DNA of 34,032 bases from Kiritimatiellia bacterium (GTDB lineage Bacteria > Verrucomicrobiota > Kiritimatiellia > RFP12 > UBA1067). The notes beneath the pieces are model-generated. The model made no database searches and was not told where the DNA came from. It worked only from the letters and a program-made list of their open reading frames with translations. This document shows, one piece after another, positions 38 to 33,800 of the stretch. The stretch is taken from the NCBI GenBank assembly GCA_016284515.1, contig JAEEOY010000079.1, positions 1 through 34,032 on the forward strand. Reading direction: 5' to 3'. The position numbers and the translations under genes are program-made. Each line of letters begins with the position of its first letter. Position 1 is the first letter of the stretch.

Positions 38-55
38 CGCGGCGAATGTGCCGCG
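38..55. repeat. CGCGGC-RNATGY-GCCGCG palindrome, copy 1
   Basis: Six-base arms CGCGGC and GCCGCG flank the centre GAATGT. This is one of eight copies in the window that share the centre RNATGY. It lies upstream of the first gene and just after the 27-base hairpin repeat, so the two repeat types are found side by side. Confidence 0.8.
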
Positions 56-85
56 GTGAAAATTTGAAAACGAAAGGTATGATGA

Positions 86-577
86 ATGAAGAAGTTGTTG
101 GTTGTTGTGGCTGCAGTGGCGGGCTATGCGGCGGTTGCCGCTCCAGTCGAGTTTCTCGGCATCGAGGTTGGCGGGACGTTGAACGTCCTTGACGCGAAGG
201 TGCGTGAGCGGGAGGGCCTTGGTGCGCCGACGCTGGTGAACCTTGTCATTGCGAAGTACTCATATTACGACTGCGATTCCGTCAAGCCGAGAGGGGGATA
301 CGACAATTTCGGCGTGTCGGTGTCGACGAACAATGTAGTCCTCAGCGTCTCCGCATGGGGTGTCTGCCCGGACGAGAAGACCGCCGCGGAGAAGAAGGAG
401 AAGATCCTCTCGGAGTTCCGGACCAAATACGCCGACCGCATCGCGCCCGAGGGGAACTTCACTATTGAAGTCTCCGCAGACAAGGACGGCGCCTCCGGCA
501 AGCCCTTTGTCGATGTTGTCATCTACACAGCCGAGTTCAAGGCGACGCTCGACCGCAACTACAAGCACGGGAAGTAA
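86..577 (+). CDS. small secreted protein of unknown function
   Basis: A 163-residue protein that I do not recognise. The N-terminus (KK, then a hydrophobic stretch LLVVVAAVAGYAAVA ending APVE) reads as a Sec signal peptide with likely cleavage near residue 19, so an envelope or secreted location is inferred. The mature part has a predicted mix of strands and one charged helix (around residues 96-113, rich in K and E), and two cysteines (63 and 94) that could form a disulfide. The start is supported by AAAGG eight bases upstream. An 18-base palindrome begins directly after the TAA stop. No neighbour in the degraded region downstream helps assign a role. Confidence 0.75.
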   Translation: MKKLLVVVAAVAGYAAVAAPVEFLGIEVGGTLNVLDAKVREREGLGAPTLVNLVIAKYSYYDCDSVKPRGGYDNFGVSVSTNNVVLSVSAWGVCPDEKTAAEKKEKILSEFRTKYADRIAPEGNFTIEVSADKDGASGKPFVDVVIYTAEFKATLDRNYKHGK

Positions 578-595
578 CGCGGCAAATGTGCCGCG
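578..595. repeat. CGCGGC-RNATGY-GCCGCG palindrome abutting a stop codon
   Basis: Centre AAATGT. The first base follows the TAA of the secreted-protein gene with no gap. A second copy (2832-2849) abuts the stop codon of the DRTGG gene in the same way. A role in RNA 3' end formation or stability is possible, but no T-tract follows, so it is not a standard intrinsic terminator. Confidence 0.8.
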
Positions 596-613
596 CGAAG
601 CGAGTCCCCGACA

Positions 614-775
614 GGGGCCGTGCGCGAGGCGATTGTCAATGCCGTCTGCCACCGCGACTATACGGACGACGGAAGCGTTCAGCTGATGCTTTTCCGTAAT
701 CGGCAGGAGGTGTTTAATCCTGGAACGCTGCCGCGTGTCTGGACTGCGGCGAATCTGCTGATGACGTACTGGTAA
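614..775 (+). pseudogene. remnant of AlbA/RecG-like ATP-binding protein
   Basis: Reading from 614 gives GAVREAIVNAVCHRDY followed by a strand-rich stretch and FNPGTLP, ending in TAA at 773-775. This matches the HATPase_c_4 region of the AlbA_2/RecG-like putative DNA-binding ATP-binding proteins, where EAIVNAxxHRDY is the N-box and xNPGxLP follows. Only about 53 residues remain: there is no start codon, no N-terminal AlbA domain and no C-terminal winged helix. The reading frame is shared with the YhcG fragment that follows the stop codon. I read it as a decayed gene fragment, not a working protein. Confidence 0.6.
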
Positions 776-1432
776 ATAGGCGCGTTCCTTTCGCCGCGGA
801 TTCATGCCGGAAGCTGGGACGTGGCGGTAGTCGCCCGTCTTGCCGACTATCTTAAACGACAGGATCCGACGCTCAGGGGATACGGCAAGAGCAATCTGTA
901 TAACATGGCGAAGGTATACGATGTCTTTTCGTCGGATGCGTTTACCGCCCTGAACGATCAACATCAAAAACAACTTACGCGGGGGCTGGACTTTTTCCAG
1001 TCGGCAACTGGAAAAAGTGATGTCGTGAGAAGTGGAGTAGCCGGAGTTGCGAGGCTTTAGCGGCAGAAGCTTGAAGAACATGCGTTCGTTTTATGAGGCT
1101 TGGAGCATGCTTGAGCCCAATTCGGCAATTCAAATTGCCGAATTGCCAAAAGACACTGAAACGGCAGGTTTAGTGGCTCAAACCGGAGAATGGGAGATTC
1201 GGCAATTCAGATTGCCGAAATTCGCCAATTGGAATTGACGAATTTACCAAATTTTCCCCTTGCCGAGTTCTTGAGCATAGGGTTCACCCATCACATTATG
1301 CAGGATTTCCGTCAACCGATGGGCGTTGCGACCTACAAGACTGCGGACGAAATTGATCCGGATCTGCTCAAGGCGCTGCCTCCGAAGGAAGAATTGGAAA
1401 GGTTGCTTGAGCCCGAGGGTAATGGTCAGTAG
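776..1432 (+). pseudogene. fragmented YhcG/DUF1016-family nuclease gene(s)
   Basis: Three pieces of the YhcG (DUF1016, PDDEXK nuclease) family are visible. From 776 the frame reads WDVAVVARLADYL...LRGYGKSNLYNMAKVYDVF, the N-terminal helical domain. From 1047 a second piece reads RGFSGRSLKNMRSFYEAW and SAIQIAEL, the same domain again. After a frame change near 1190-1240 the sequence gives NFPLAEFLSIGFTHH and then jumps to QPMGVATYK and LPPKEELERLLEPEG, the typical C-terminal end. The central nuclease core is missing. Two different N-terminal pieces mean either two eroded paralogues or an internal duplication. A repeated AATTC-rich inverted repeat at about 1120-1225 marks the frame change. Confidence 0.6.
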
Positions 1433-1450
1433 ATTGATGAGGAGGTTGGT

Positions 1451-1567
1451 GTGCGTAAGAAAAACCAAACGGGCGGGGTTGTGAAGTTGGTGGCGCCTGG
1501 AGAAGCAATCGGCTTTGGGGCGATGGTGGCGGCCGGGCGGGCGTTGGGTGTGGCTTGTGTGATATAA
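1451..1567 (+). CDS. doubtful 38-residue open frame
   Basis: GTG at 1451 is preceded by AGGAGG ten bases upstream and opens a 38-residue frame (VRKKNQTGG... ending ALGVACVI) that stops inside the next -10 box. I do not recognise it. It lies between two decayed genes and may itself be debris; the good ribosome site is the only positive evidence. Confidence 0.15.
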   Translation: MRKKNQTGGVVKLVAPGEAIGFGAMVAAGRALGVACVI

Positions 1568-1568
1568 T
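1560..1568 (+). promoter_or_regulatory. extended -10 (TGA-TATAAT)
   Basis: TGATATAAT stands out in GC-rich sequence and lies 18 bases before the ATG of the Fic remnant, with GGAGG in between. It has the same TGN-extended form as the other promoters in the window. Confidence 0.5.
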
Positions 1569-1586
1569 TTGAAGCGGAGGTAAAGG

Positions 1587-1975
1587 ATGAAGAAGATCGA
1601 ATACATTCCGAAGTTTACGGTGAGCGGCAAGGCGATGCGGCTCATTATGGAGATTGCCGACGCATTAGAACGATACAAAATCGTGATGGAGGGGCCTGAT
1701 GGCGTGCGGCTCAGAAAGCTCAATCAAATCGGACACTGAAGGCCAAGGGTGAAGCATATGAGGTAGGGGAAGAAAGTAGGGTTAAGAGTAGGGATAAAAG
1801 TAGGGATAAGGTATTGTGCCTTTTGCGCAAGCAGCCTGATTTGACGCAAGCTGAGCTTGCTAATGCATTGGGATTGACGGTAAAAGCGATTGAGAAGATC
1901 GTTCGTCAGTTGAGGGATGCTAATCTCATCAAGCGTGAGGGTGGCAAGAAATTCGGACGCTGGATTGTGGCATAA
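1587..1975 (+). pseudogene. Fic-family protein with the catalytic centre deleted
   Basis: The ATG at 1587, preceded by GGAGG and AAAGG, starts a 50-residue frame (MKKIEYIPKFTVSGKAMRL..., then ADALERYKIVMEGPDGVRLRKLNQI) that matches the N-terminal domain of Fic-family (AMP-transferase) proteins. It ends at a TGA at 1737-1739. One frame over, from about 1736, the sequence continues as KSRDKVLCLLRKQPDLTQ, AELANALGLTVKAIEK and GGKKFGRWIVA, the winged-helix tail of the same family, stopping at 1973-1975. The HPFxxGNGR catalytic core, normally about 200 residues, is absent. The -10 and ribosome site are intact, so a 50-residue peptide could still be made. The tail could instead come from an AlbA/RecG-like protein, which carries a similar winged helix. 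Confidence 0.6.
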
Positions 1976-2211
1976 AAAAGAATGAGCAAGTCCACACAGA
2001 TTGTGATGCACGAACGGCCGCCATCCGCAATCGCTACATTCTCGAACGTTCAGAGAGTGTAAGGTTCTAAGATCAAAAATTTTGACCTTAGAGACTACCC
2101 CGGTAAAGAAAGCGTGCGGTGATTCCTGCCACGAGATAGGCAAGGACGGAAGGCAAAGTGGATGCCATAGGGTCGCACACCATAGCATCCCTAATGTGCG
2201 CCTATCCCTGA

Positions 2212-2239
2212 TTCTACACGTTTCTACACGTTCTACACG
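2212..2239. repeat. tandem TTCTACACG repeat
   Basis: Three consecutive near-identical units of 9-10 bases (TTCTACACG, TTTCTACACG, TTCTACACG). Short, and of unknown role. Confidence 0.6.
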
Positions 2240-2251
2240 GCTCAAAAGAAA

Positions 2252-2280
2252 TTCCGTGTATTCTGTGTATTCGGTGGTTG
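2252..2280. repeat. GTGTATTC-type intergenic repeat
   Basis: Degenerate octamer repeats (CCGTGTAT, TCTGTGTA, TTCGGTGG) that, read on the minus strand, encode TEYTEYTEF. From general knowledge, this kind of sequence is widespread in intergenic regions of many bacterial genomes and gives spurious protein predictions. Confidence 0.55.
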
Positions 2281-2286
2281 AAAGGT

Positions 2287-2304
2287 CGCGGCGGATGTGC
2301 CGCG
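2287..2304. repeat. CGCGGC-RNATGY-GCCGCG palindrome
   Basis: Centre GGATGT. It lies in the repeat-rich intergenic stretch, directly before the GGAGCTGGAAGCTCC hairpin (2314-2330) and the second 27-base hairpin repeat. Confidence 0.8.
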
Positions 2305-2343
2305 GTTGAGTGGCGGAGCTGGAAGCTCCACCTCCTTGGGAGT

Positions 2344-2370
2344 GACGCGGCTGGAAGCCGCGTCTCCATG
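2344..2370. repeat. 27-base hairpin repeat, copy 2
   Basis: Identical over 27 bases to 9-35, with the GCGGCTGGAAGCCGC stem-loop followed by GTCTCCATG. Identity across 2.3 kb indicates recent copying or gene conversion of a mobile-like hairpin element. Confidence 0.75.
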
Positions 2371-2583
2371 GGGGGCGGAGCTGTTCGGACACTGCGCTCG
2401 CTGCGCTCCCTCCGCGTCCTCATGGCGGCCGCGACAAGCTCGGTCTTCCTGCGTCGGGAAAGGGTGGTTTAAGTTCGCGAAGCATCGGCCGCAGCGGTAG
2501 CGAAGGCGCTTTGTAAACCGTCGGAGTTTCATCATGCTGTTTACCGCTGCTATCCCCGTCACATATTGCAATAAGTGACGGCT

Positions 2584-2824
2584 CAAGGAGATGCGGCGTC
2601 CCGCCGCGTCGGAGTGACGCACCGGGACGGTGCGTCTCCTTGGGGTGCGATGCCAGGCGGATGAACCAAGGAGATGCGGCGTCTCGCCGCGTCGGAGTGA
2701 CGCACCGGGACATATCCCCCTCGCCGAAGGCGAGCCGCGAAGCGGTGGCTACAGGGGTGTGCGTCTCCTTGGGGTGCGATGCCAGGCGGATGAACCAAGG
2801 GGATGCGGCGTCTCGCCGCGTCGG
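2584..2824. repeat. nested long direct repeat array
   Basis: Units begin CAAGGAGATGCGGCG at 2584, 2667 and (CAAGGGGATGCGGCG) 2796. Unit 1 is 83 bases. Unit 2 is the same sequence with about 46 extra bases inserted after CACCGGGAC. The extra piece contains two perfect mini-hairpins, CTCGCC-GAA-GGCGAG and CCGC-GAA-GCGG. Unit 3 is a partial copy of about 29 bases. Each unit opens with the hairpin GCGGCGTCYCGCCGC. The arrangement indicates duplication followed by insertion of one repeat into another. Confidence 0.75.
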
Positions 2825-2831
2825 CAAATAA

Positions 2832-2849
2832 CGCGGCAGATGCGCCGCG
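2832..2849. repeat. CGCGGC-RNATGY-GCCGCG palindrome abutting a stop codon
   Basis: Centre AGATGC. It directly follows the TAG (2852-2850, minus strand) of the leftward DRTGG gene, mirroring the copy at 578-595, which directly follows a TAA on the plus strand. Confidence 0.8.
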
Positions 2850-3185
2850 CTATCGCTTTGCCGGGGCGAGGTCGGCAAGCTTCACCGAGGCCTCGAACTG
2901 CGAAAGGGGAGTCGTCATTATGCCGATGCCCTCGCGCTTCGCAGCCTCGATCATGTCGTCCGGGGCCGGCCTGTCGTGGCAGAGGACGATCGCCTCGATT
3001 CCGGCGAGCGTGCAGACGGCGATTGCGTTCAGGTGGTTCTGGATCGTGATCAGGACCGATTCGTCTCCGCAGTGTCCCATCACGTCGGAGAGAAGGTCGG
3101 AGGTGTACGCCGCGGTGATCGCGGCCTCGGGATTGTCGACGACTACTGTGCCGCCGACGCGGTCTTTGAGTTCATTGAAGGTCAT
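2850..3185 (-). CDS. DRTGG-domain protein (leftward arm)
   Basis: A 111-residue single-domain protein of the DRTGG fold, a small putative regulatory or ligand-binding domain also found in the N-terminal part of some phosphotransacetylases. Visible family features are AAYTSDLLSDVMG near residue 26, the VLITIQNHLNAIAVC strand-helix, GIEAIVLCHDRPAPDDMI and GIGIMTTPLSQFEA near the end. It is a diverged paralogue of the DRTGG protein at 4070-4408. It lies downstream of the PHP gene on the same strand, separated by a heptamer repeat that runs right up to the ATG, so no Shine-Dalgarno sequence precedes the start. In anaerobes such small DRTGG proteins commonly sit with PHP and RsbW-like genes near iron-hydrogenase loci; a regulatory role is inferred. 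The ligand is unknown. Confidence 0.8.
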   Translation of the reverse strand: MTFNELKDRVGGTVVVDNPEAAITAAYTSDLLSDVMGHCGDESVLITIQNHLNAIAVCTLAGIEAIVLCHDRPAPDDMIEAAKREGIGIMTTPLSQFEASVKLADLAPAKR

Positions 3186-3241
3186 GTTAGTCGTTAGTTG
3201 TTAGTCGTTGGTCGTTAGTCGTTAGTTGTTAGTTGTTAGTG
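3186..3241. repeat. heptamer tandem repeat (GTTAGTC/T)8 before a start codon
   Basis: Eight consecutive 7-base units, GTTAGTC or GTTAGTT with one GTTGGTC and a final GTTAGTG. On the minus strand the array (GACTAAC/AACTAAC) ends directly at the ATG of the DRTGG gene and fills nearly all of the gap after the PHP stop. Variation in copy number would change the distance between the two genes and the mRNA leader. Confidence 0.85.
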
Positions 3242-3258
3242 GCTGGGGGCGGAATTCC

Positions 3259-4020
3259 TCAGAAGCTTGTCAGCCTCGGCGATATCCTCGTCGCTTTCGC
3301 GGCGAAGATGGCCTTGAGTCCGGCTACGGAGAACTCGCCGTCGGCTTCGGTCCAGACGCGAGCGACGTCGTCGATGTTGTGCGCGTCGGAGGATCGCGTC
3401 ACGGCGTAGCCTTCGACCTTCGGGAGCCACAGGCTCTCGTCGGCGGTGCGCGAAAGCTCGACGGCGTCGAAGAAGAGCCCTCCGCCCGGCTGGATCTCGG
3501 TGTCGACGAGCGGACGCGGGATCGTCCCCAGGGTGCCGAGGACGGAGTGGTTTTTGCGGTCGACGTGCGCGGCGATGAAGAGTCCGCCCAGCTCGTGCAC
3601 CTTCGTCGCCGTCTCGGGGATCGTGCGGCGGCAGCCCATGGCGAGGATGCGCCATTCCATCTCGACGATGTCGTCGTCCCATGTCACGACGGGCTGGTCG
3701 CCGAAGGTTTCCGGGTCGTTCACGCGCTTTGGCATGGCGGCGTATACCCAGTCCGTCATCTCCAGCGCCTGCTCCACGGTGTCGAAGAGGGCGAGGGTGT
3801 GGACTTCCTCGGCGGTCTGGACCTCCATGCCGAAGAGGCACTTGAGTCCGGCGCGCCTTGCGCACTCTGCTATCGCGGGGGTGTTGCGCGCGGACTGGTG
3901 GTCAGTGAGGGCGATTCCGTCCATTCCGGACGCGAGCGCCTGGCGCACGATCTCCGACGGCGCCATCTCGAGGTTGGCGCACGGCGACAGGCAGCTGTGT
4001 ATGTGCAAATCAAACTTCAC
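3259..4020 (-). CDS. PHP-domain metal-dependent phosphoesterase
   Basis: A 253-residue PHP (polymerase and histidinol phosphatase) domain protein, expected to hydrolyse phosphoesters with a multi-metal site. Visible metal-ligand motifs: HIHSCLSPC at residues 6-14, ALTDHQS near 38, GMEVQT near 67, HVDRK near 150 and SDAHN near 213. The start is GTG at 4020-4018. A TGC-TATAAT box on the minus strand (4036-4028) ends only seven bases before this GTG, so the transcript is probably leaderless. The gene diverges from the DRTGG/CBS genes. Near the 3' end another frame reads SDEDIAEADKLLRNS and stops at 3236, which looks more protein-like than the annotated tail SPRLTSF; a frameshift there is possible but unproven. 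The true substrate is unknown. Confidence 0.85.
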   Translation of the reverse strand: MKFDLHIHSCLSPCANLEMAPSEIVRQALASGMDGIALTDHQSARNTPAIAECARRAGLKCLFGMEVQTAEEVHTLALFDTVEQALEMTDWVYAAMPKRVNDPETFGDQPVVTWDDDIVEMEWRILAMGCRRTIPETATKVHELGGLFIAAHVDRKNHSVLGTLGTIPRPLVDTEIQPGGGLFFDAVELSRTADESLWLPKVEGYAVTRSSDAHNIDDVARVWTEADGEFSVAGLKAIFAAKATRISPRLTSF

Positions 4021-4027
4021 GCCGCCT

Positions 4028-4060
4028 ATTATAGCAAATGCGGATTTTTTTTGCTATACT
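4028..4060. promoter_or_regulatory. overlapping divergent extended -10 promoters
   Basis: The minus-strand -10 TATAAT (4033-4028), preceded by TGC, serves the PHP gene. The plus-strand -10 TATACT (4055-4060), also preceded by TGC, serves the DRTGG gene. The two boxes form an inverted repeat (ATAGCAAA at 4031-4038, TTTGCTAT at 4050-4057) only 21 bases apart, so each polymerase would cover the other's upstream region. A run of eight T lies between them. Distances to the start codons are seven and nine bases. Confidence 0.7.
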
Positions 4061-4069
4061 ATACGGCAA

Positions 4070-4408
4070 ATGAACATCACTGACATTGTTAAGACCCTTG
4101 ACGGCACGCTCGTCGCGGGTGGGGAATCCGACCGGAAGGTCGGCACTGTGGTTGCGAACGACCTCATGAGCGACGTTCTGCTCAACGACGGCGACGACAT
4201 CCTGCTGCTGACGTCCCTTGCGTCCGACCAGGCGATCCGCACGGCGAACATCGTCGGCGCGATGTGCGTGGTCGTGCACAACGCGAAGCCGCTGCCGCAG
4301 ACGATGTGCCAGGTCGCCGACACGCTCGGCATCCCGCTCGTGAGCTCGCCGCTCTCGAAGTACGACAGCTGCGTGCGCATCCACGACTTCCTGGCCAAGG
4401 AGGGCTGA
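4070..4408 (+). CDS. DRTGG-domain protein (rightward arm)
   Basis: A 112-residue DRTGG-fold protein and paralogue of the gene at 2850-3185. Shared features are VVANDLMSDVLLNDGDDILLL, the AIRTANIVGAMCVVVHNAKP segment and GIPLVSSPLSKYDSCVRI near the C-terminus. The ATG at 4070 lies nine bases after the TATACT -10 box, with no Shine-Dalgarno sequence, so initiation is probably leaderless. Its TGA overlaps the next ATG by one base (TGATG), indicating translational coupling to the CBS-HATPase protein. The family is thought to be regulatory; no ligand has been established that I can assign here. Confidence 0.8.
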   Translation: MNITDIVKTLDGTLVAGGESDRKVGTVVANDLMSDVLLNDGDDILLLTSLASDQAIRTANIVGAMCVVVHNAKPLPQTMCQVADTLGIPLVSSPLSKYDSCVRIHDFLAKEG

Positions 4409-5487: not shown

Positions 5488-6008
5488 CCGAGACGGACGA
5501 TTTTGACGAGATCGACCCCGCGGTTCCGCGGTGGTATCTGATCCACACCAAGCCGCGCGCCGAGAAGAAGGTGTCGTGGTATCTCGGCAGGTTCGGGTGC
5601 TTCTGGCACATGCCGAGCAAGGACGTCGTGCGCAAGGTGCAGCGCAGGAAGGTGCGGAGGGTGCTTCCGCTCTTCCCTGGCTATGTGTTCGCCCGCATGA
5701 ACGCGGACCAGCGCATAGGGATGCTGCGCACGAACTACATCGTGCGGACGCTGCTGATCCCGCGTCCGCGCGAGACGATACACCAGCTCCGCCAGCTCAG
5801 GCGCGGCGTCGCCATGGCGACGGAGATGCGGGTCCTGTCGAAGACCTTCCACGAGGGCGACCACGTGCGGGTCACGACGGGGCCGATGCGCGGGACAGAG
5901 GGATACGTCAAGCGCGACGGAGGACGGACGCTCCTCTATCTCAACGTCGAGATCCTCGGCAGCTCCGTGGAGGTCGCGATACCGCCGTCCGACGTCGAGC
6001 GCATCTGA
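5484..6008 (+). CDS. specialised NusG paralogue (RfaH/UpxY/LoaP-like)
   Basis: A 174-residue protein with a NusG N-terminal domain (about residues 15-110: WYLIHTKPRAEKKVSWYL, LFPGYVFARM, VRTLLIP) and a C-terminal KOW module (about 118-174: GDHVRVTTGPMRGTEGYVKR, then VEVAIPPSDVERI). NusG-family proteins bind RNA polymerase and alter pausing or termination. The FPGYVF motif and the extended basic N-domain (QRRKVRRVLP) are more typical of operon-specific paralogues than of housekeeping NusG, which is normally beside secE, rplK and rplA; none of those are here. The GTG start overlaps the CBS-HATPase stop by four bases, so the proteins are probably co-produced. The target operon is not shown by the sequence. 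Confidence 0.85.
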   Translation: MTETDDFDEIDPAVPRWYLIHTKPRAEKKVSWYLGRFGCFWHMPSKDVVRKVQRRKVRRVLPLFPGYVFARMNADQRIGMLRTNYIVRTLLIPRPRETIHQLRQLRRGVAMATEMRVLSKTFHEGDHVRVTTGPMRGTEGYVKRDGGRTLLYLNVEILGSSVEVAIPPSDVERI

Positions 6009-6050
6009 CCGGACTCGGATGAATCTGATCGCCCGAAGTGTCGGGGATTG

Positions 6051-6059
6051 TGGTATAAT
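6051..6059 (+). promoter_or_regulatory. extended -10 (TGG-TATAAT)
   Basis: TGTGGTATAATG lies 36 bases before the ATG of the M20 peptidase gene, with TGAGGA as ribosome site between. No recognisable -35 is found at the expected spacing. Confidence 0.65.
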
Positions 6060-6095: not shown

Positions 6096-7445
6096 ATGGA
6101 AGACAAAGTCCTTGCGGAATATTTCGAACTGCTCCGATACGAATCCGTCGGAGCGGACCCGGCGCACCTTCGCGACTGTGTTTCGTGCGCGTCGTGGCTA
6201 AGGAAGTGGCTTGGCAAGCTCGGCTTCTCCGCCGAGCTCGTCTACCCAAAGCAGGAAGCTGGCTCGGTGCCGCCACCACCCGTGCTCTTTGCGCAGAGGG
6301 ACGGTGGCGAAGGCGCGTCGACGGTGCTAGTGTATGGACACTACGACGTGCAGCCGGCGGACCCCGTCTCCGAGTGGAAGACGCCTCCGTTCGAGCCGAC
6401 GCTCGTTGACGGACGCGTCTACTGCCGCGGCGCGAACGACGACAAAGGGCAGACTTTTGCGTTCCTGTGCGGAATGCGCGACTACCTCGCAGGGGAAGGT
6501 CCGAAGCTCAACATCAAGATAGTTCTCGACGGACAGGAGGAATCTGGCAGCGCGGCGCTTTCCGCGCTCGCGCCTGAGATGCGACGGCGCCTCGCGGCGG
6601 ACGTCATGCTCGTGTGCGACACGTCCGCTGCGCCAGGGATGCGCCCTGCGATCGTCGCGGGGCTTCGCGGCGTTGCGCATTTCACGCTGCGCCTGACGGG
6701 TCCGAACCGCGACCTCCACTCCGGGGAGTACGGCGGCGTCTCGCCGAACCCCGCGCAGGGCCTTGCCGAGCTTATCGCGAGTCTGCACCATCCGGACGGG
6801 TCGATCGCAGTCGCTGGGTTCCGCGACGGAATCGAGCTCCCGACGCACGAGGAGCTTTCCGCGGCCGAGGCGAGCACGCCGTCGGAGTCCGACTGTGCGG
6901 CGGACATCGGATGCGACCCAGTCGGCGGCCAGATGGGCAAGACGCTTGCGCAGCGCACGTCGTTTGAGCCGACGATAGAGGTGAACGGAATCCACTCCGG
7001 GTACGGCGGGCCGGGCGCGAAGACGGTGATCCCCTGCGAGGCGGTCGCGAAGATGTCGATGCGCCTAGTCCCGGGGCAGTCGCCGCGCGGCGCATTTGCC
7101 GCGGTTCGCACGCATCTGGAGGACCGGTGCCCGAAGGGAATGAAGCTCGAGTTCGAGGAGGTTAACCAAGGGACGCCGGCCTTTAGGCTTCCGCTCGCGT
7201 CGCCGGTGTTCCGCCTTGCCGCCGACGTGTTGGGCGAGATGGACGGCCGCGGGGCGCTTTTCCAGTGGGACGGTGCGTCGATTCCGGTTCTGTCGGTCCT
7301 GCGCGAGGCGTCTGGCGCGGCTCCGCTCATCGTGGGGTGGGGGCAGAGCGAGGACCGCATACATTCCCCAAACGAGAGCTATTCGCTTGCGCAGTTTGAA
7401 AAGGCCCGCGAATGGGGAAGGCGCATTCTTGGCGCGTTGGGGTGA
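6096..7445 (+). CDS. M20-family dipeptidase
   Basis: A 449-residue cytoplasmic zinc peptidase of the M20 family (dipeptidase/ArgE/DapE-like). Visible metal-site motifs: GHYDVQPAD (His82, Asp84), RGANDDKGQ (bridging Asp115) and DGQEESGS (Glu148 catalytic, Glu149 ligand). LHSGEYGG (around residue 209) belongs to the lid/dimerisation domain that M20 peptidases insert in the catalytic domain. The length fits the family. The product probably releases amino acids from dipeptides or acylated amino acids; the sequence does not fix the substrate. The start is supported by TGAGGA five bases upstream. The response-regulator gene follows after one base. A CGCGGC-N6-GCCGCG palindrome lies inside the frame (7086-7103), encoding RGAFAA. 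Confidence 0.9.
   Translation: MEDKVLAEYFELLRYESVGADPAHLRDCVSCASWLRKWLGKLGFSAELVYPKQEAGSVPPPPVLFAQRDGGEGASTVLVYGHYDVQPADPVSEWKTPPFEPTLVDGRVYCRGANDDKGQTFAFLCGMRDYLAGEGPKLNIKIVLDGQEESGSAALSALAPEMRRRLAADVMLVCDTSAAPGMRPAIVAGLRGVAHFTLRLTGPNRDLHSGEYGGVSPNPAQGLAELIASLHHPDGSIAVAGFRDGIELPTHEELSAAEASTPSESDCAADIGCDPVGGQMGKTLAQRTSFEPTIEVNGIHSGYGGPGAKTVIPCEAVAKMSMRLVPGQSPRGAFAAVRTHLEDRCPKGMKLEFEEVNQGTPAFRLPLASPVFRLAADVLGEMDGRGALFQWDGASIPVLSVLREASGAAPLIVGWGQSEDRIHSPNESYSLAQFEKAREWGRRILGALG
7086..7103. repeat. CGCGGC-N6-GCCGCG palindrome inside the M20 gene (reverse orientation)
   Basis: Centre GCATTT, which is AAATGC on the minus strand. On that strand it is identical to the copy at 29297-29314. In frame it reads RGAFAA. 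Confidence 0.7.
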
Positions 7446-8189: not shown

Positions 8190-9830
8190 ATGGTTACAGA
8201 TTTCATCAGAAAGGCCGTCCGGGTGTTCTGGCTGCTGCCGGGATTCCTGCTGTGGGCGTCGTTTCCTCCGATGGGCGAGATGACAGACTCGCTCTTCGCG
8301 CTCGCGCCTTTGCTGTGGCTTTCGCGCAACCGCGACGCGAAGACTGCCCTGCGCAGGTGGTTCCTCAACGGATTCATCTTCTGGTTCGCGACGCTTTCGT
8401 GGATGCCCGCCATCGTCAAGAACGGCGGACCCTGGCCGCTCGTCGTGCTCGGATGGGGCGCGCTCTCCGCATACTGCGCGCTCTACTTCGGCGCGTTCGG
8501 ATGGCTCTCCGCGAAGGTGTGGGCGTGGGCGAAGGACGAAGGAGCGCCGTGGAGGAAGGCTCCGCGCTTTCCGTACGGGCGCAGGCTTTTCGCGATACTC
8601 GTCGCGGAACCGGTCCTCTGGTGCGGACTCGAACTCGTCCGCTCGCGCCTCATGGGCGGCTTTTCCTGGAACCACCTCGGGCTTCCGCTCGTCAATGCCG
8701 GACTCGGCTCGCCCGCCGCGCTCGGGGGCGTTTATCTCCTTAGTGCAATCGTCGTGCTCGTCAACGGAACTATCGCCGGAATCGCCGAGCGCCTCATGAA
8801 GCGCACGACGCGCTGGGCGTTCGTCGAGACGCTTGTTCCGATGCTGCTCGTCCTTGCGCTGTACTTCGCCGGCGGAAGGGCTGTGAAGGCCTCCGCCCCC
8901 GTCGACGACGGATCCAGCGCGCTGCGCGTCGCCCTTGCTCAGCGAAACTTCCCGTGCGTCTTCAAGCCTGCGGAGGCGGAGGATCCCATAGACGTCTACT
9001 CGAACCTCCTCTCGAACGTCGCCTTTGCGAGGCCGGAACTCCTGGTCCTGCCGGAAAGCGCGCTCAGCGAATTCGGCGCGGCGGATTCGCCGCGCTCGCG
9101 CGCGTTTCTGCGGTGGGTCGCCGAAATCTCCGGCGCGCGCGAAGTCATTGCTGGCGGCGGACGGTTCTCCGGCGGCAAGGAATACAACTCGGCGGTGCTC
9201 TACGGCGCAGGACCGGCCGTCCCCAACTCGCAGCTCCCAGTCTACGACAAGGTCCATCTCGTGCCGTTCGGTGAGTTCATCCCGGGCGACAAGTGGATCA
9301 CCGCGCTGCAGAAGCTTGCACCCGTCGGGAGCTGCACGCCCGGTGAGCTGAAGCTCCTGGGGGGGTACGGCGTTGCGATCTGCTACGAGGACACGGATTC
9401 CGCGCAGATGCGCGCGCTGGCGCGGATGGGCGCGAAGTGCCTCGTGTTCATCACGAACGACAGCTGGTTCTCCGAGTCGATCGAGGCGGAGCAGCACGCG
9501 TGGCAGTCCGTCGCGCGCGCGATCGAGACGGGGCTCCACGTCGTGCGGGTCGGAAACTCCGGCGTTACGGGGGTGATATCTCCGCGCGGCCGGGCGAAGT
9601 GGCTCTCGGGGCATGACGGGCGTCCGCTCGTCGATGCGCGCGGGCTTATGTGCGAGACGGTGCTTGTAAAAGACTTCGGCGAAGCGGCGGGACGCCGCTT
9701 CCCCCAGTCAACGCCGTACGCCCTCTGGGGCGACATTCCGCTGGCCGTTATATTTGCACTTCTCATAGCGGCGTCCGTTTTGGTAAAATATTACGATAAC
9801 CATGAAAAACGAAGATACATGTCCATGTAA
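8190..9830 (+). CDS. lnt: apolipoprotein N-acyltransferase
   Basis: A 546-residue inner-membrane enzyme that transfers the third acyl chain to the N-terminal cysteine of lipoproteins, the last step of lipoprotein maturation in Gram-negative bacteria. The N-terminal half has several hydrophobic segments (around residues 10-25, 68-110 and 170-230) and the C-terminal half is a nitrilase-like domain with the expected Glu-Lys-Cys triad: Glu289 in [11 protein letters not shown], Lys354 in [12 protein letters not shown] and Cys398 in [15 protein letters not shown] follows. A final hydrophobic segment (about 513-528) is near the C-terminus. ATG 8190 is preferred over TTG 8187 because AGGAAG lies nine bases upstream. 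Its last 29 bases overlap the SEC-C gene. Confidence 0.93.
9781..9789 (+). promoter_or_regulatory. probable internal extended -10 (TGG-TAAAAT)
   Basis: TTTTGGTAAAATATT lies inside the 3' end of lnt, 12 bases before the ATG of the SEC-C gene. It matches the window's TGN-extended pattern and would give a very short or absent leader. Confidence 0.4.
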
Positions 9831-15069: not shown

Positions 15070-18000
15070 ATGAAGACCTGTCTGTTTTATCGCAAGCGAT
15101 TCGCATTGCGGCTTGCAGTTGCAAGTGCAATGGCGATCTGCGCCGTCGCCGCTAAGGCGGCGCCATGGTTCGACGCAGGGGTGTCCGCGTACGAGTCATG
15201 GCCGGACGATGGAACGGACAAGGTCGTTGCCGGCGCAGGCACTTGGACCGGCACGGATTCCGCGCAGCTCGTCGGCGGTGAAGACGGAGCCAGGCTAAAA
15301 CTCGAATCCGACGGGCCGGTCCCGCTGGGCTTCGACGCGGCGGTGACTAAGCAGATTGCGGACGACAGGCCGTCGATCTCCACGACCGTCCGCTTTTCCG
15401 GGTCCGACGACGCACCTCAGCTCGACCCAGTCGACAAGGCGATGGTCACGGTCGCGTCGGTCGACGGCGTCCCGCGTTACTTCGGCCTCGGCTTCGACCC
15501 TGATGGCGGGACGAACGTCCTATACGTCCTGGAGGGACCAGAGCCGGACGAAAACGCGGATGTGCTTCTTGGATTTGCGTTCAAGGTTGAGGGCGGCGCG
15601 ACTTACATCAAGTACACGATCGACGGGACACCCCTTACCCTTGCTGGTTCTGAATGGATTCTCACAAGCCTTGCCTCCGGCAACGAATCTGTTTCATCCG
15701 TCTGCTATGCAGGCATCGGAGACGTCGTCTCCCTCGCCGGCGAAGTCGGTTCGGACGAGCCCGCCGTGACCAAGACGCTGACGATCCCCGCGCTAGAACA
15801 CGTCGTCATAGAGTCCGTAAAGGTCGCCGGCACCGACATTGCGTCCGACGGCGAGGGAAACTACGTCGTGACGCAGGGGTCGGTCGTGACCGTGACGTTC
15901 ATGCCGGACCCCGGCTGGGCGCTTAACGTCGCGTCGATGACTTTCATTGTCAACGATGACATGACGCTTCCGGAGACGGGACGTCCGACCCCGGTAAACG
16001 TGGCCGCGACGGTGACGATCAACGAGGTGATGGCGAAGAACGGATCTACGTTGTCCACGAAGCGCGGATTCGAGGGGCTGGACTGGGTCGAGCTATACAA
16101 TTCCGGAGACGACGACGTTGACCTCACCGGATGGTACATGGGCAATGACCCGACGAAGAAGACGAAGAAGTGGCCTCGCATCGAGGGAAGCTGCGTCGTC
16201 CCCGCGAAGGGGTACAAAATCGTGTGGTTCGACGGCGACGCCCTCAACGGCGACTGGGCTCCGGACGAGGCCCATGTAGAGGCGAACATCTCGACGGACG
16301 CCGGCAAGCACACCGTGTTCCTCGCATCCGCGGCCGCGACATCGGCCATCGTGCAGCAGATCAGGATGCCCGGTGGCGTCAAGGACGTCTCTTACGGACG
16401 CGGACATCTTTCGCGCACGCTCATCTCCTCAACGTCGACAGCCGAATACAAGGCCGGAGGCGGGGAATGGACGCCGGTTGACGGGTCTGTCGGCATGAGC
16501 GCCGCGGCCGGAGGCTTCACTGTCGTTAGCTACCAGATCAACAAGGATGTCGGCAACATGGATGTAGTAGATGCGTGCCTGGTCGATCCGTCGACATGGA
16601 AGGATGGCTATCCCGTCACCAACACGACGCAGACGCTTGCGTTCGCCGGTACCAACCAGACGCCAAGTTTTGACCTGAATCTCTACAGCTCTTTCCCTGG
16701 TGGCGTTTCGGGCAACAACTTCATCTGCGTCGCGACAGCGACGATCCAGATTCCCGAGAAGGGGGACTGGACGTTCGACGTCGGTTCGGACGACGGATTC
16801 AGCGCAAAACTTACGCGCCTCGACAGGAAATGGGGCTGGGAGAGCCGCGGCTCGCGCGGATACGGACACTCGAGTGCGACTTTCAACCTCGAGGCGGGCT
16901 CCTACGAGGTGGAGGTACGCTACTTCAACGCCGGCGGTGGCTATGTGATGGACTTCAGCGCCGCGAAGGGCCGCACGGGCTTCAATGCCGAAACGTTCCG
17001 GCTTGTCGGAACGGGCGACGTCGTCCATGCGGGCGCGCTCGGCGCGCAGGTCGCGGCGGACGTTTCGGACGAGATGATCGGCAAGTCGAAGTCGCTCGAG
17101 TGGAAGACGACGTTCACCCTCGACGAGACGCCGGTCGCGGCGGATGGCTTCCGCCTCCTCGTCAAGTATGCCGACGGATTCTCCGCGCGCGTCAACGGAA
17201 CGCAGGTCGCCTTTGTCGCGGCGAATGCGCCGCGTGCCGCCGCGGATGCGCTCAGGGCGCAGGAGTTCGCCGTCGATCCGTCTCTCGTCGTCAAGGGCGT
17301 CAACACGCTCGAGATCACAGCTGAGAACGATGCGATCGGCGACACCGAGTTCTATCTTTCGGCCGAGCTGGTCCATGACATGTCGGAGGACCTGTATGTG
17401 TATTTCCCGTCGCCCACGCCCGGCGCGGCGAACGCCGGCAGCGGACGCACGGGATTCACGCCGAAGGTGGCGTTCAGCGAGGCGCACGGATGGAAGGACG
17501 AGGCGTTCGACCTCGCGCTCTCCTGCCCCGACAGCGCTACGGCCGTCATCTACTACACTCTCGACGGAACCTCGCCCGTCATCGGCGCGCCGAAGACGTT
17601 CCGCTACACTGCGCCTTTCCGCGTCGACAAGACGACGGTCGTGCGCGCCGCGGTCCCAGACGTCGATTCGATTCTCCAGATTGACGCGTCCGCGACGTAT
17701 CTCTTCTACGACGACGTGATTTCGCAGGATGCGTCCGTACCGGAAGGCTTCCCGGCTGACATGGCGGTCAACAGCCAGCGAATGCTCTACGGATTCGACA
17801 CGGCCATCACGCAGGGCGACGCCGATACGCGAGAGCGGCTGAGGCGCGGCCTCACGGAAAATACGCGCACCGTATCGCTGGTGATCGATCCGAAGAACCT
17901 TTTCGACGGCGCGAGCGGCATATATGTCAACGCCTCCGGCAACGGACGAATCTGGGAGCGCCAGACGATGGTCGAACAGATCAATCCGATGGACCATGCA

Positions 18001-28680: not shown

Positions 28681-28690
28681 GGTCAGCCGC

Positions 28691-29362
28691 ATGGACCGGC
28701 GCATAACACTTTTCGCGGGCCACTACGGAAGCGGCAAGACCAACATCGCGCTCAACTACGCGCGGCATATCCGCCGCGCATATCCGCGCGTCGCGGTCGC
28801 GGACCTCGACATAGTGAACCCCTACTTCCGCACCAAGGACTCCGCGGCGGAGCTCGCTGCTGACGGAATCGAACTCGTCGTGAGCGACTTCGCGAACTCC
28901 AACGTCGACTTCCCGGCGATGCCGAAGGAGACCTACGCGCTCATGGCCGACCGCGCGACGCGCGTCGTAGTGGACGTCGGAGGAGACGACAGGGGCGCAC
29001 TTGCGCTCGGACGCTACGTGGACGACATCCGCGCCGAAGGCGACTACGAGATGCTCGCCGTCATCAACGCGTCGCGTCCGCTCACCACGACGCCGCAGGA
29101 CACCGTCGAGGTGCTGCGCGAGATCGAGGCGGCTTGTGCGCTTCCGTTCACGGGGATCGTCAACAACACCAACCTCGGACAGAAGACGACGGCTGAGACG
29201 GTTCTCGCGTCCGTTCCCTACGCGGACGAGGTGTCGCGGCTCATGGGTATCCCAGTGCGCTTCACATGCTGCGCCGCCGCGCTCGAGCCCGAACTCCGCG
29301 GCAAATGCGCCGCGCTCTTCCCCCTCGTCATCCAGAAGCTCTACTACCAGCTCGACGCGTAG
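28691..29362 (+). CDS. MinD/CobQ-like P-loop ATPase
   Basis: A 223-residue nucleotide-binding protein of the CobQ/CobB/MinD/ParA group. The P-loop is FAGHYGSGKTNIALNYA (residues about 8-24), the switch-like segment is VADLDIVNPYFRTKD and the Walker B-like strand is RVVVDVGGDDRGA. VINASRPLTTTPQDTVEVL and GIVNNTNLGQKTT resemble a clostridial family that lies beside iron-sulfur oxidoreductase genes; that association is from memory and unconfirmed. It is ten bases downstream of the activase-dehydratase gene and may help assemble or regulate it (inference). ATG 28691 is chosen because the upstream in-frame start would overlap the previous gene by more than 40 bases. The 18-base palindrome at 29297-29314 encodes RGKCAA in its C-terminal region. 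Confidence 0.8.
   Translation: MDRRITLFAGHYGSGKTNIALNYARHIRRAYPRVAVADLDIVNPYFRTKDSAAELAADGIELVVSDFANSNVDFPAMPKETYALMADRATRVVVDVGGDDRGALALGRYVDDIRAEGDYEMLAVINASRPLTTTPQDTVEVLREIEAACALPFTGIVNNTNLGQKTTAETVLASVPYADEVSRLMGIPVRFTCCAAALEPELRGKCAALFPLVIQKLYYQLDA
29297..29314. repeat. CGCGGC-RNATGY-GCCGCG palindrome inside the P-loop ATPase gene
   Basis: Centre AAATGC, identical on the opposite strand to the copy in the M20 gene. In frame it reads RGKCAA. Confidence 0.75.
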
Positions 29363-29397
29363 TTTTTTATCTCCCCGGCTTTACTTTCCACAGCTAC

Positions 29398-29426
29398 TTG
29401 CATACCCTACGGGGGTATGGTATAAT
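29398..29426 (+). promoter_or_regulatory. csoR promoter (TTGCAT-17-TATAAT)
   Basis: TTGCAT (29398-29403), a 17-base spacer and TATAAT (29421-29426) preceded by TGG. This is the only promoter in the window with both a plausible -35 and the extended -10. The CsoR operator fills the spacer. Confidence 0.7.
29401..29419. promoter_or_regulatory. CsoR-type operator
   Basis: CATACCCTACGGGGGTATG, a dyad with arms CATACCC and GGGTATG. This has the TACCC-N-GGGTA form typical of CsoR/RcnR-family operators. It lies between -35 and -10, where repressor binding would block polymerase, and precedes a CsoR gene, so autoregulation is likely. Confidence 0.75.
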
Positions 29427-29457
29427 ATGCATTCGAAAGGTCAAGGAAGGACTAAAG

Positions 29458-29736
29458 ATGAGAAAGTGCATCGAAGACGTGACGGCGCTTCAGCTGAGGC
29501 TGAAGAAGATCGTCGGGCAGCTGACAGGTGTCCAGAAGATGCTTGCGGAGGATGTCCCGTGCGAGGACATCCTCACGCAGCTAAACGCGGCGAACGGGGC
29601 GCTGCACCGTCTGTCGTTCATAATACTCGACGGACATCTCCGCCATTGCGTGCGCGAGGGAATAGAAAAGGGCAATGCGGACGAGACGATCGAGTCGTTT
29701 GCGGAGGCGCTTGAGAGCTTTTCGAAGATGGCATAG
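29458..29736 (+). CDS. csoR: CsoR-family copper-sensing repressor
   Basis: A 92-residue all-helical DUF156 repressor. Members form tetramers and leave DNA when metal binds. The residues Cys35, His60 and Cys64 (VPCEDI, DGHLRHCV) match the C-H-C Cu(I) triad of CsoR; in the related persulfide sensor CstR the histidine position differs, which argues for copper sensing. RLKKIVGQLTGVQKML is the usual first-helix signature. The start is supported by AAGGAAGG seven bases upstream. The operator overlaps its promoter, and the efflux permease gene follows 12 bases later. Confidence 0.88.
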   Translation: MRKCIEDVTALQLRLKKIVGQLTGVQKMLAEDVPCEDILTQLNAANGALHRLSFIILDGHLRHCVREGIEKGNADETIESFAEALESFSKMA

Positions 29737-29748
29737 AGGGGGCGGGAA

Positions 29749-30783
29749 ATGAAAGACATATTGCTTGCGTTCGTCCATGTGTTCGCCATGATGGCACCGT
29801 GGCTCGTCTTTGGCTTTCTGATGGCGGGAATCATCGCCGTGTGGATCCCGCGCAGCTGGGTGAACCGCATGATGGGCGGCAGCTCAGGCTTCCGTGGAAT
29901 TCTCCGCGCCGTGGCGATCGGCGTGCCGCTTCCGATCTGCTCGTGCGGCGTGCTGCCGATCGCGGCCGGACTCCGCAAGCACGGCGCTGGGAAAGGTCCG
30001 ACCGCCGCGCTCCTCATCTCCACGCCGCAGACGGGCATCGATTCCATTCTCGCGACATACGCTCTGCTCGGTCCCGTCTTCGCCGTGGCGCGTCCGATCG
30101 CCGCCGCGATTACTGGCGTCGTCGGTGGTGCGGTCGTCTCGGCAGTCGGCGGAGAGGACGCGTCGTCCGTCGCCGTAGAGGAATCGGCTGCGGGCTCTCG
30201 AGGGATCAAGGCGATCTTCTGGCAGGCATACAGGCGGCTTCTCGGGTCCGTAGCGAAGCCGCTTGCGGTCGGACTCGCCGTATCCGCGCTTGTCACTGTG
30301 CTTGTCCCGGACAACTTCTTCGCGGATGCGTTTCATGGCAGCGACTGGATCGCGATGCCCGTTATGGCGCTCGTTGGCTTCCCGATGTACGTCTGCTCGA
30401 CGGCGTCGATTCCGATTGCCGCGTCACTCGTCGCGAAGGGCGTCTCGCCCGGCGCGGCATTCGTCTTCCTGATGGTAGGCCCTGCGATGAACGCAATGTC
30501 GCTCACGACCGTCGCCGCGCTTGTCGGACGCAAGGCCGCCGCCGCGTACGTTGCGGTGATCATTGCCGGCGCGATCCTCTGCGGCATTGCGATCAATCTT
30601 ATCCCGGATGCGCTCCCCGCGACTTCCGCGATCGCCGCCGCGGGCCATTCGCTTTCCGCAGTCCACTGGGCGTCTGCCGCGTTCCTCGCCGCGATGATCG
30701 CCTACAACCTTGTCCGCCCTGTGGGGATGGGGCACCACAAGTGCTCTTCAAAGCAGGAACCGGAGCCGAAAGAGGGACGGTAA
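29749..30783 (+). CDS. SO_0444/DUF318-family Cu/Zn efflux permease
   Basis: A 344-residue inner-membrane permease of the DUF318 (SO_0444) family, related to organoarsenical permease ArsP. It has about eight hydrophobic segments. The family signature PLPICSCGVLPIAAGLRKHG (residues about 59-78) carries the Cys-Ser-Cys pair expected to handle soft metals, and LLISTPQTGIDSI follows. A second half-repeat has VGFPMYVCSTASIPIAASLV, then VGPAMNAMSLTT. Two-fold internal pseudo-symmetry fits the family. Its position behind csoR indicates copper or other soft-metal export. The C-terminus ends MGHHKCSSKQ, a short His/Cys-containing tail. Confidence 0.88.
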   Translation: MKDILLAFVHVFAMMAPWLVFGFLMAGIIAVWIPRSWVNRMMGGSSGFRGILRAVAIGVPLPICSCGVLPIAAGLRKHGAGKGPTAALLISTPQTGIDSILATYALLGPVFAVARPIAAAITGVVGGAVVSAVGGEDASSVAVEESAAGSRGIKAIFWQAYRRLLGSVAKPLAVGLAVSALVTVLVPDNFFADAFHGSDWIAMPVMALVGFPMYVCSTASIPIAASLVAKGVSPGAAFVFLMVGPAMNAMSLTTVAALVGRKAAAAYVAVIIAGAILCGIAINLIPDALPATSAIAAAGHSLSAVHWASAAFLAAMIAYNLVRPVGMGHHKCSSKQEPEPKEGR

Positions 30784-30875
30784 GCCGTGCGTCTGCGGCA
30801 ACTATGCAGAACTGCTTGCTTTTACTAAAAAGGATGTTGCAAATTTACGAAATGGATGCTCGCTCTTTAAAATTC

Positions 30876-30884
30876 TGATATAAT
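30876..30884 (+). promoter_or_regulatory. extended -10 (TGA-TATAAT), leaderless start
   Basis: TCTGATATAATG ends six bases before the ATG at 30891. GTCAGT between them contains no ribosome site. Upstream, 30784-30875 holds a GCAAATTTACGA that weakly resembles the 29-base element, but at a different distance. Confidence 0.65.
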
Positions 30885-30890
30885 GTCAGT

Positions 30891-33800
30891 ATGAAAAGAG
30901 CAACAGCATTCGCGGCCGCCGCGGTCGCTTTCGTGACATCGGCGTTCGGAGCCGAAACTGAGACGTCGGTCAGTTTCTATTCGCCGTCCATCGTGCGCAT
31001 CGTGCGCGCCGAGCGGGGACAGTCCCTGGCAAAGCCGTGGAAGGCGGTGATTGCCGCTGAAGACAAGACTGTCGCAGTCGAGCGCACGGAGTCCGAGAAG
31101 GAGACCGTGTGGAAGACCTCCGCGCTCGTCGTCTCGCAGGCGAAGGAGTCGGGGCTCTTCACGTTCCTCTCCCCCGACGGCAAGGTGCTCCTGAGCGAGA
31201 AGGGCAAGACTTCCGTCTCCCCGGCGGCGCAGGCGTTCGCGCTCGGCGAGGAAGCGCCGCTCTACGGACTCGGCGACTTGCAGAAGCCCGTCCTCGACAT
31301 CCGCGGAATCTCCCACCGACTCATGCCGCAGAACCAGGGCGACGGAATCGCCTATGTCGCATCGCCGCTTGGCTGGGCCCTCTACTGGGATGACTCGAGC
31401 CCTGTCGCGTTCGCCTCCTCGAAGGACGGTTTTTCTTTCACGAGCGAAAGCGCCGCGTTCGTCGACTACTACTTCATCGCCGGCGGTTCTATGGACGCAT
31501 GCGTCGCCGGAATGCGCCAGCTCACCGGCCCCTCGCCGATGCTTCCTCGCTGGGTGTACGGCTTCTGGCAGTCGCGCGAGCGCTACAAGACCCAGGACGA
31601 GATCGTGTCCGTCCTGAAGCGCTACCGCACTGATGGAATCCCGCTCGACGGAATCGTCCAGGACTGGCAGTACTGGGGCGACAACGCGCACTGGAACGAC
31701 ATGAAGTTCGACTCGCGCACGTTCCCCGATCCGAAGAAGATGGTGGACGACATCCACGCCCTCCACGCTAAGGTCCTCATCACCGTGTGGCCGTCGTTCG
31801 GACCTAAGACGGACGCCTTCAAGGAGCTCGAATCGAAAGGTCTCCTCATTCCCGTCACGACCTGGCCCGCGTGGGTCTCCGACGAGGACCACAGCCCGTC
31901 GGGCGCGCACATCCAGGACTCCTACAGCCCCGTTGCGAATGAAATCTACTGGAAGCACCTCCTTCGCCTCGTCGATATCGGAATAGACGGATGGTGGATG
32001 GACTCCACCGACCCGGACCACTTCGAGAAGGAAGGCGACCTCGAGCTCCCGACCTCGCTCGGACTCCCCTGGCGCGCGGTGCGCAGCGCATATCCGCTCG
32101 CCTGCACCGAGCCCGTCGCCGCGCGCCTGAGAAAGCGCGACGACAAGCGTCCGTTCATCCTCACCCGCGGCGCATCCGCCGGACAGCAGCGCTGCTCTAC
32201 GAGCGTCTGGAGCGGAGACGTCGAAAGCTCTTGGGACGGATTCTCCTACCAGATTCCGGGCGGCATCAACTATTCGCTCACGGGCAATCCGCAGTTCGGA
32301 TGCGACCTAGGCGGATTCTTCTCCGGCAGCTGGCTCCCCAAGGGCGGCGTCGACAACCCCGAATGGCGCGAGCTCTACGTCCGCTGGTTCGAGGCAGGCG
32401 TGTACATGCCGATGATGCGCAGCCACGGCACGGGTGTTCCGCGCGAAGTGTATCTCTACGGAAAGCCCGGCGAGGAAGTCTACGACGCGCTGCTCGGCGC
32501 GATAAAGCGCCGCTATGCCCTGATGCCCTACATCTACTCGACCGCGGCGGATGTGTCGCGCAACGGCACGAGCTTCATGCGTCCGCTCGCCGCCGACTTC
32601 CCGTCCGACCGCAGGGCGTGGCCCCTCGCGCAGGAGTACATGTTCGGCAGGAGCCTTCTTGTTGCGCCCGTGACAACGCCGGGCGGGAAGGTCTCGGTCT
32701 ATCTTCCTGAGGGTACTGACTGGTGGGACGTCGCGAGCGGAAAGCGCCTGCGCGGCGGATATGCCGCGGACCTCGTCGTGCCGCTCGCCGCGACGCCGTG
32801 CTACGCGAAGGCGGGGACGATAATGCCGCTCGGGCCCGACGTGCAGTGGAACGGCGAGAAGGCGTGGGACGATCTCGAGGTCGTCGTCTATCCCGGCGCG
32901 GACGGAAAGTTCACGCTCTACGAGGACGACTTCGAGACGCGTGCATGCGAGCGCGGCGAGTTCACCGAAATCGACTTCACGTGGGACGACGCGAGGCGGA
33001 CGCTCAAGATCGGAGCTCGGCGCGGAAGCTATCCCGGCATGCTCGTGAAGCGGCGCTTCCGCATCCGCGTCGCGGACGGATCGGTTCCGGGCGTTCGCGA
33101 AGTCGAATACGCAGGCAATGCCCTCGAGGCTGACTTCGCGAAGTCGTACTGTGAAGTTCTCGGCGACGGATGGGAGTTCTCCTACGGCGGCACGGGCGAA
33201 TGGCAGAAGGTGTCCGTTCCGCACGACTGGGCGATCTCGCGTCCGTTCGACTTCCACGCTGATCCGCAGAACGACGGCAACGGAAACACCGGCGCGCTGC
33301 CGTGGGTGGGGAAGGGCGTCTACCGCCGCACGCTGCGCCTTCCCTCCGAATGGGCGCGCGGCACATGTGCCGCGCTTGAGTTCGACGGCGTGATGAGCCG
33401 GCCGGAGGTGTATCTCGACGGAAAGAAGATCGGCGGATGGAACTACGGCTACATGGGCTTCCGCGTGGAGCTCGCGAATGTCGCGAAGTTCGGAGTCGAC
33501 CAGGAGCTCGTCGTGAAGTGCGACACGACGCGCCAGCGCTCGCGCTGGTATCCGGGCGCCGGCATCTACCGCGAGGTGCGTCTCGTCGCTGACGATTTCG
33601 ACAAGCGCGCGCTTCCGGGGTCCGTGTTCATCACTACTCCCGTCGTCACGAAGGAGAAGGCCGTCGTGAAGGTTGAGTGGGAAACGCCCGCCGGACCCGA
33701 CTCCACGACGTTCGAGATTGCGAAGCCGAGGCTTTGGGACATTGATGATCCGCACCTATACGAGTTCGAGCTTTTCGGCAGGAAGTACAGATACGGAATC

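Follow-up and report, generated by a model that had tools for sequence, protein, structure and literature searches.

Words that recur throughout bacterial genomes include the uptake sequences of natural transformation (DNA uptake sequences and uptake signal sequences, DUS/USS), which are asymmetric 9-12-mers, dispersed, tolerated in coding DNA and differing between species as dialects; the repetitive extragenic palindromes (REP), which are extragenic insertions; and sites of the matS/Noc/SlmA type, which number tens of copies. In this report we describe an 18-bp palindrome, CGCGGC-N6-GCCGCG, recognized in contig JAEEOY010000079.1 of a Kiritimatiellia bacterium (the window: the whole stretch analysed, 34,032 nucleotides) and dispersed through the host genome, G000, a 3.86-Mb metagenome-assembled genome of 292 contigs, as well as being present in some phages. 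Its nearest precedents are Chi for the phage part and, for the word itself, the highly iterated palindrome (HIP) HIP1, GCGATCGC, with its alternates in the cyanobacteria. In the excerpted text of PMC4390886 the HIPs are described as palindromic, over-represented and dispersed, and as sharply variable between related genomes; Chi, according to the excerpted text of PMC3784561, is over-represented in those lambdoid phages which lack recombinases of their own. A search of the open-licence PMC literature for the exact pattern, and for two shorter versions of it, gave no matches, and no paper on this palindrome was found there. What purpose HIP-like words serve has long been an open question.

The site pattern read backwards served as the control. 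G000 contains 423 sites of the N6 form compared with 7 for the control, and 311 of the tight form (CGCGGC-R-N-A-T-N-Y-GCCGCG) compared with one; in 406 of the 423 the centre begins with a purine and ends with a pyrimidine (the R...Y form). The window holds 11 exact sites where dinucleotide shuffles lead one to expect 0.13, the highest count among 100 shuffled versions being two, and no spacer from 0 to 20 other than 6 gives more than two words. The original prediction, made from the window alone, had placed the palindrome far above chance, and both counts bear this out. All eight copies which it listed have exact arms; its total was low, since the supposed near match at 9077 also has exact arms and the sites at 28761-28778 and 32751-32768 had been missed. 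Nor is the constant part of the centre ATG, as had been proposed, but R-N-A-T-N-Y (11 of 11 window sites), the base after AT being G, T, C or A. The label "reverse" given to the copy at 7086 is nearly meaningless because the arms form a two-fold palindrome.

Thirty-four contigs (C1-C34, 436,650 bases, the window being C19 and two contigs reading as N) hold 50 sites, or 0.1145 per kb, and the variation between contigs is not excessive (dispersion p = 0.30). With 11 sites in 34 kb (0.32 per kb) the window is by comparison a site-rich stretch. A mixed-bin artefact is contradicted by the lack of excess variation over contigs and by the presence of the site in separate named assemblies (three of the 32 relatives aligned at 7086).

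Like the HIPs, the palindrome is over-represented genome-wide, coding DNA included. It differs from those of the excerpted PMC4390886 in being 18 bp long with a loosely fixed six-base centre, rather than 5-8 bp, and in being several to more than 20 times sparser. Further differences are that C5-methylase genes do not consistently track the site, that the phylum is another one, and that the site is present in phages. We have classed it as a distinct HIP-like word because its length, density and two-half structure depart from the HIPs in that text. As far as the excerpted account of the HIPs extends, it constitutes a highly iterated palindrome outside the cyanobacteria which is longer and more specific, and common to a host and some phages.

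The anatomy of the site was studied in a 312.5-kb sample of G000 whose contigs were chosen from the site list; its density of 0.157 per kb is biased by this choice of site-bearing contigs, and the value of 0.1145 per kb is used instead. The sample contains 49 words with a spacer of 6 and eight with a spacer of 5, five of the latter belonging to a separate repeat with the centre TGGAA (described below), while the remaining spacers from 0 to 24 give 0-3 words each. When the letters of the arm were rearranged in 20 distinct orders, CGCGGC alone proved to be enriched (49, next best 4). Half-site position 7 is a purine in 98 of 98 halves and position 9 an A in 85%, and the flanks of the 49 sites carry little information beyond the palindrome. 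Exact arms (49) outnumber arms with one mismatch (35; control pattern with one mismatch, 23), and over C1-C34 the half-site total, 1610 with full sites included, compares with a Markov expectation of 1484, so that lone halves are barely enriched. In the 50 sites of C1-C34 the first and last bases of the centre (G.T 16, A.C 15, G.C 11, A.T 8) display no pairing preference, which argues against an extended-stem hairpin.

An RNA hairpin or terminator was put aside on the grounds that the outer bases of the centre show no covariation as pairs, that the sites are mostly intragenic, and that neither Rfam (gathering threshold) nor ARAGORN matched anything in the window; a half-site or short word of the methylase type is unsupported, the half-site being near its Markov expectation. 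These patterns fit two-fold symmetric recognition at the level of the duplex better than they fit either a hairpin or a short word for methylation. Of the ideas in the original prediction, that of a protein-binding site agrees best with the near-fixed spacer, the symmetric centre, the uninformative flanks and the little-enriched lone half-sites. The two-fold symmetry sets the site apart from Chi, an octamer read in one orientation, and the constraint on both inverted halves, with a lone half barely enriched, sets it apart from DUS/USS.

In a sample of 387 genomes of the phylum the tight form is enriched in this genus only: the other members which stand out there have 57 (G247), 7 (G032), 5 (G011) and 4 (G009) copies, and all remaining genomes at most two each. 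When 61 genomes of the genus were counted, 14 proved to have more than 60 sites of the R...Y form (high-site genomes), with 64-406 copies each, namely G000 406, G034 246, G439 241, G435 238, G432 228, G010 227, G441 212, G029 182, G247 175, G429 159, G008 122, G002 73, G427 66 and G019 64; the other 47 possess 31 or fewer. In a tree of the apolipoprotein N-acyltransferase Lnt from 30 of these genomes, six of the high-site species group together in a single supported clade. The share of AT centres varies by species (311 of 406 in G000, 57 of 175 in G247, and 17 of 33 listed sites in G439, counted by eye), in the manner of a dialect. No other dominant palindrome word was seen in 52-100 kb samples of the low-site genomes G004, G026, G009 and G016, the ranking for G004, G009 and G016 being swamped by runs of N. 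The nearest named relatives picked up with the M20 peptidase encoded in the window come from uncultured bacteria, variously labelled as Kiritimatiellae, Verrucomicrobia or Lentisphaerae, or simply as bacterium; the titles of many refer to the ruminant gut. As a separate observation, G044, of the same order and another family, has 73 sites of the N6 form against 8 for the control and just one of the tight form; this may be a separate palindrome whose centre differs.

For the analysis of coding DNA our own gene caller and 300 synonymous shuffles were applied to the 50 sites in C1-C34, or about 11% of the genome. Fully coding sites number 37 of 50 against a coding share of 82% (p = 0.20), and non-coding DNA is therefore not preferred. 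Synonymous shuffling predicts 3.4 sites (maximum 11) where 37 are found, and 0.48 of the tight form where there are 27; a codon or amino-acid artefact is thereby ruled out, and the excess which had been claimed from base composition persists against a codon-matched expectation. By frame the coding sites fall 16 in frame 0, 15 in frame 2 and six in frame 1. The peptides which the site forces are enriched in two frames (RG..AA 23 vs AA..RG 5; AA..PR 19 vs PR..AA 0), that of the third frame not being so (AR..RR 6 vs RR..AR 7). Called genes contain seven of the 11 window sites, and not four as originally thought: 7086, 29297, 32751 and 33357 in frame 0, 9077 and 17217 in frame 2, and 28761 in frame 1. 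The frames RGxCAA and RGAFAA noted earlier are indeed those of 7086, 29297 and 33357, to which 32751 (RGGYAA) adds a fourth frame-0 site. The window sites are as follows.

38..55: centre GAATGT; outside called genes.
578..595: centre AAATGT; immediately 3' of the stop codon of a weak gene call, 116-577.
2287..2304: centre GGATGT; in a stretch without a called gene.
2832..2849: centre AGATGC; in a stretch without a called gene.
7086..7103: centre GCATTT; M20 peptidase gene, read as RGAFAA; orthologous site in three of 32 aligned named relatives.
9077..9094: centre GGATTC; Lnt gene; orthologous site in five of 30 aligned, including four other species of the same clade.
17217..17234: centre GAATGC; large gene with CotH/LTD domains.
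28761..28778: centre ATATCC; gene 28691-29362; this species alone (one of 23 aligned).
29297..29314: centre AAATGC; gene 28691-29362, read as RGKCAA; this species alone (one of 22 aligned).
32751..32768: centre GGATAT; gene 30993-34031, read as RGGYAA; one of 10 aligned, with possible paralogues among them.
33357..33374: centre ACATGT, a perfect palindrome; gene 30993-34031, read as RGTCAA; one of 18 aligned, with possible paralogues among them.

The pressure for the site is strong enough to set residues in Lnt, M20 peptidase and phage portal genes, and the residues at sites (RGxCAA and the like) may consequently reflect selection on the DNA rather than the function of the protein. Elsewhere, two sites 20 bp apart occupy a single reading frame of 446 amino acids (L414:10803-10840).

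Comparison of orthologous positions bears on how sites arise and are kept. The three counterparts at 7086 have the centres GCATTT, GCCTTT and GTAATT; the aligned relatives are equal in length at this place, the site-free L016 keeping the six residues with broken arms and the rest of those without the site differing in residues. All five species with the 9077 site belong to the high-site clade, and have exact arms with the centre GGATTC or AGATTC; G435, a member of the clade, is without it and has three extra bases there, G010 and the other clade members being of unchanged length. At the places of 28761 and 29297 the sequences of G010 and of the clade members differ in several bases and not in length, and some distant relatives have indels of 3 to 18 bases in both directions; the clade members are shorter by one codon at 33357. 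When pairs of high-site genomes were aligned, the near-identical G034/G439 being left out, the arms were intact in 36 of 71 orthologue pairs, which are not independent, the figure for shifted windows being 8.4; when a single partner is taken for each site the values are 16 of 25 and 3.0. The arms are kept while the free positions of the centre drift.

Viral contigs were scanned with the tight form, giving 114 stretches, 80 of which were returned as loci. Fifty viral records, all chosen for holding at least one site, were counted whole, and nine of them have 3-7 sites: G467 seven, G458 six, G454 and G488 five each, and G445, G464, G489, G491 and G492 three each. The control is absent from seven of the nine (G454 2, G489 1). 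Because of near-identical pairs the nine represent some five lineages; in some related phages the density of sites is host-like. Ten proteins from five of the records included terminase, portal or phage transposition proteins in G488, G467, G464 and G492, those of G458 belonging only to families of unknown function. Between phages 95-99% identical, three site pairs have the same arms and a different centre; most other close pairs are wholly identical. In the portal gene of G467 the site takes the place of ordinary codons, with no extra length relative to four prophage homologues. The G000 portal gene is 73% identical to this one, and a portal match is found in 10 of the 61 genomes. Stretches around portal homologues have no sites in the low-site genomes G412 and G218 (29 and 40 kb) or in G434 and G423 (26 and 20 kb); a 9-kb contig of high-site G008 and one of 6 kb in the bin of low-site G440 carry three sites each. 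Methylase genes occur in site-bearing phages (C5 in L346, a weak N6 match in L313), and the C5-methylase gene of L346 (10780-11892, minus strand) itself contains a site.

We accord an even chance to the reading that the palindrome is a dispersed genome-wide signal of HIP-like kind, bound as a duplex by a putative homodimeric host protein and having a maintenance role. Such a DNA-binding protein would recognize the double-stranded site as two inverted 9-bp half-sites, CGCGGCRNA, with 12 bp between the midpoints of the six-base arms, and could perform a chromosome-wide job, for example DNA repair, protection or organization. Any replicon in the cell might then gain by carrying sites, as E. coli and some phages keep Chi; Chi (RecBCD/AddAB) is likewise a word with many copies in the host genome which is shared with phages (PMC3784561, in the excerpted text).

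Several observations weigh against this reading. Sites are mildly clustered (12 gaps of less than 1 kb, 5.1 expected, p = 0.003). The high-site genomes G010, G247 and G427 fall separately on the Lnt tree, forcing at least two changes, and such scatter is unexpected for an essential housekeeping signal. The viral records were selected through their sites, and the 71 aligned pairs of high-site genomes are not independent. The prophage portal stretch of G000 itself (L415; contig C247, 20001-40000) has no site in 20 kb, the neighbouring stretches having four, four and two, which suggests weakly that prophage residence alone does not produce sites (none vs about two expected); 20 kb around a distant portal homologue in high-site G429 is also devoid of them. 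Finally, a reader protein was not found among the three families profiled in the 61 genomes, namely C5-methylase (PF00145), ParB (PF02195) and RAYT (PF01797), none of which occurs throughout the high-site genomes and is missing from the low-site ones, the assemblies being incomplete. A second ParB is present in 4 of 14 high-site and 7 of 47 low-site genomes (p = 0.26; p = 0.66 among genomes of at least 2.5 Mb); median genome sizes are 3.1 and 2.0 Mb, respectively. As bait for a reader the 18-bp word can serve as it stands, and the range of 0 to 406 copies over the 61 genomes permits correlation with gene content.

Of the other explanations a by-product of methylation, as proposed for HIP1 and its alternates, is possible if rather unlikely. 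A methylase would act at the site, and biased mismatch repair would ratchet mutations toward the palindrome. HIPs too are dispersed palindromes which take one another's place from genome to genome, every alternate having its matching methylase (PMC4390886, excerpted text). The suggestion of a restriction-avoidance or methylation site in the original prediction comes down, as regards methylation by C5-methylases, to a leaning of these candidate genes toward high-site genomes (10 of 14 vs 19 of 47, p = 0.066), besides the methylases of the site-bearing phages. This association is weaker in genomes of at least 2.5 Mb (10 of 13 vs 4 of 9, p = 0.19), and the incomplete assemblies of four high-site genomes (G010, G034, G019 and G427) have no C5-methylase match. 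Moreover, a ratchet should leave many one-off forms, whereas exact arms are the commoner here and the half-site is barely enriched; and the HIPs of the excerpted PMC4390886 are words of 5-8 nt at ~0.5-2.5 per kb, in contrast to 18 nt at 0.11 per kb.

We think it unlikely that the palindrome belongs to an undescribed class of long palindromic marks read by a dimeric protein devoted to them, which would serve the cell's own replicons as a signal of self-identity or DNA protection; phages dependent on these hosts would have evolved the mark within genes of their own, and newly arrived prophages would still be without it.

An uptake signal of natural transformation, kept through preferential uptake and recombination, seems improbable. 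The palindrome is dispersed, tolerated in genes, lineage-specific with centres which differ by species, and has arms more often exact than one-off, all as such a signal would; yet both inverted halves are needed, known uptake words being asymmetric, and there are sites in phage portal and methylase genes. Quite improbable is a positional site which marks one part of the chromosome in the manner of matS, Noc or SlmA sites: the length is suitable and the palindrome of the dimer type, but density shows no excess variation over the 34 unplaced contigs, copies number hundreds and not tens, and phages have sites.

Very improbable, lastly, is a miniature mobile palindrome inserting its own copies, of the REP/RAYT or Rickettsia palindromic element type, which the original prediction had entertained: RAYT genes favour high-site genomes (13 of 14 vs 28 of 47, p = 0.024) and other GC-rich hairpin repeats are nearby in the window, but the association is gone at 2.5 Mb and above (13 of 13 vs 8 of 9, p = 0.41), non-coding DNA is not preferred, the flanks are without signature, and the idea is not supported because the nearest site-free relatives differ in their bases and not in length, an 18-base gap being absent. 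With REP and bacterial interspersed mosaic elements and their RAYTs the sites share GC-rich palindromes with hairpin potential, differing in that they are mostly intragenic and that an insertion footprint is absent.

There remain some features of the left end of the window. Positions 38-2849 hold four of the 11 sites. The stretch 578-2850 has no called gene, and contains apparent gene remnants and several GC-rich hairpin repeats (e.g. ~2590-2830). The second dispersed repeat, CGCGGC-TGGAA-GCCGCG followed by TCTCCATG, has a spacer of 5 and conserved flanks, and looks like an intergenic hairpin repeat; it is located at 11-27 and 2346-2362 in the window, and also at L098:2943, L109:15986 and L114:2285.

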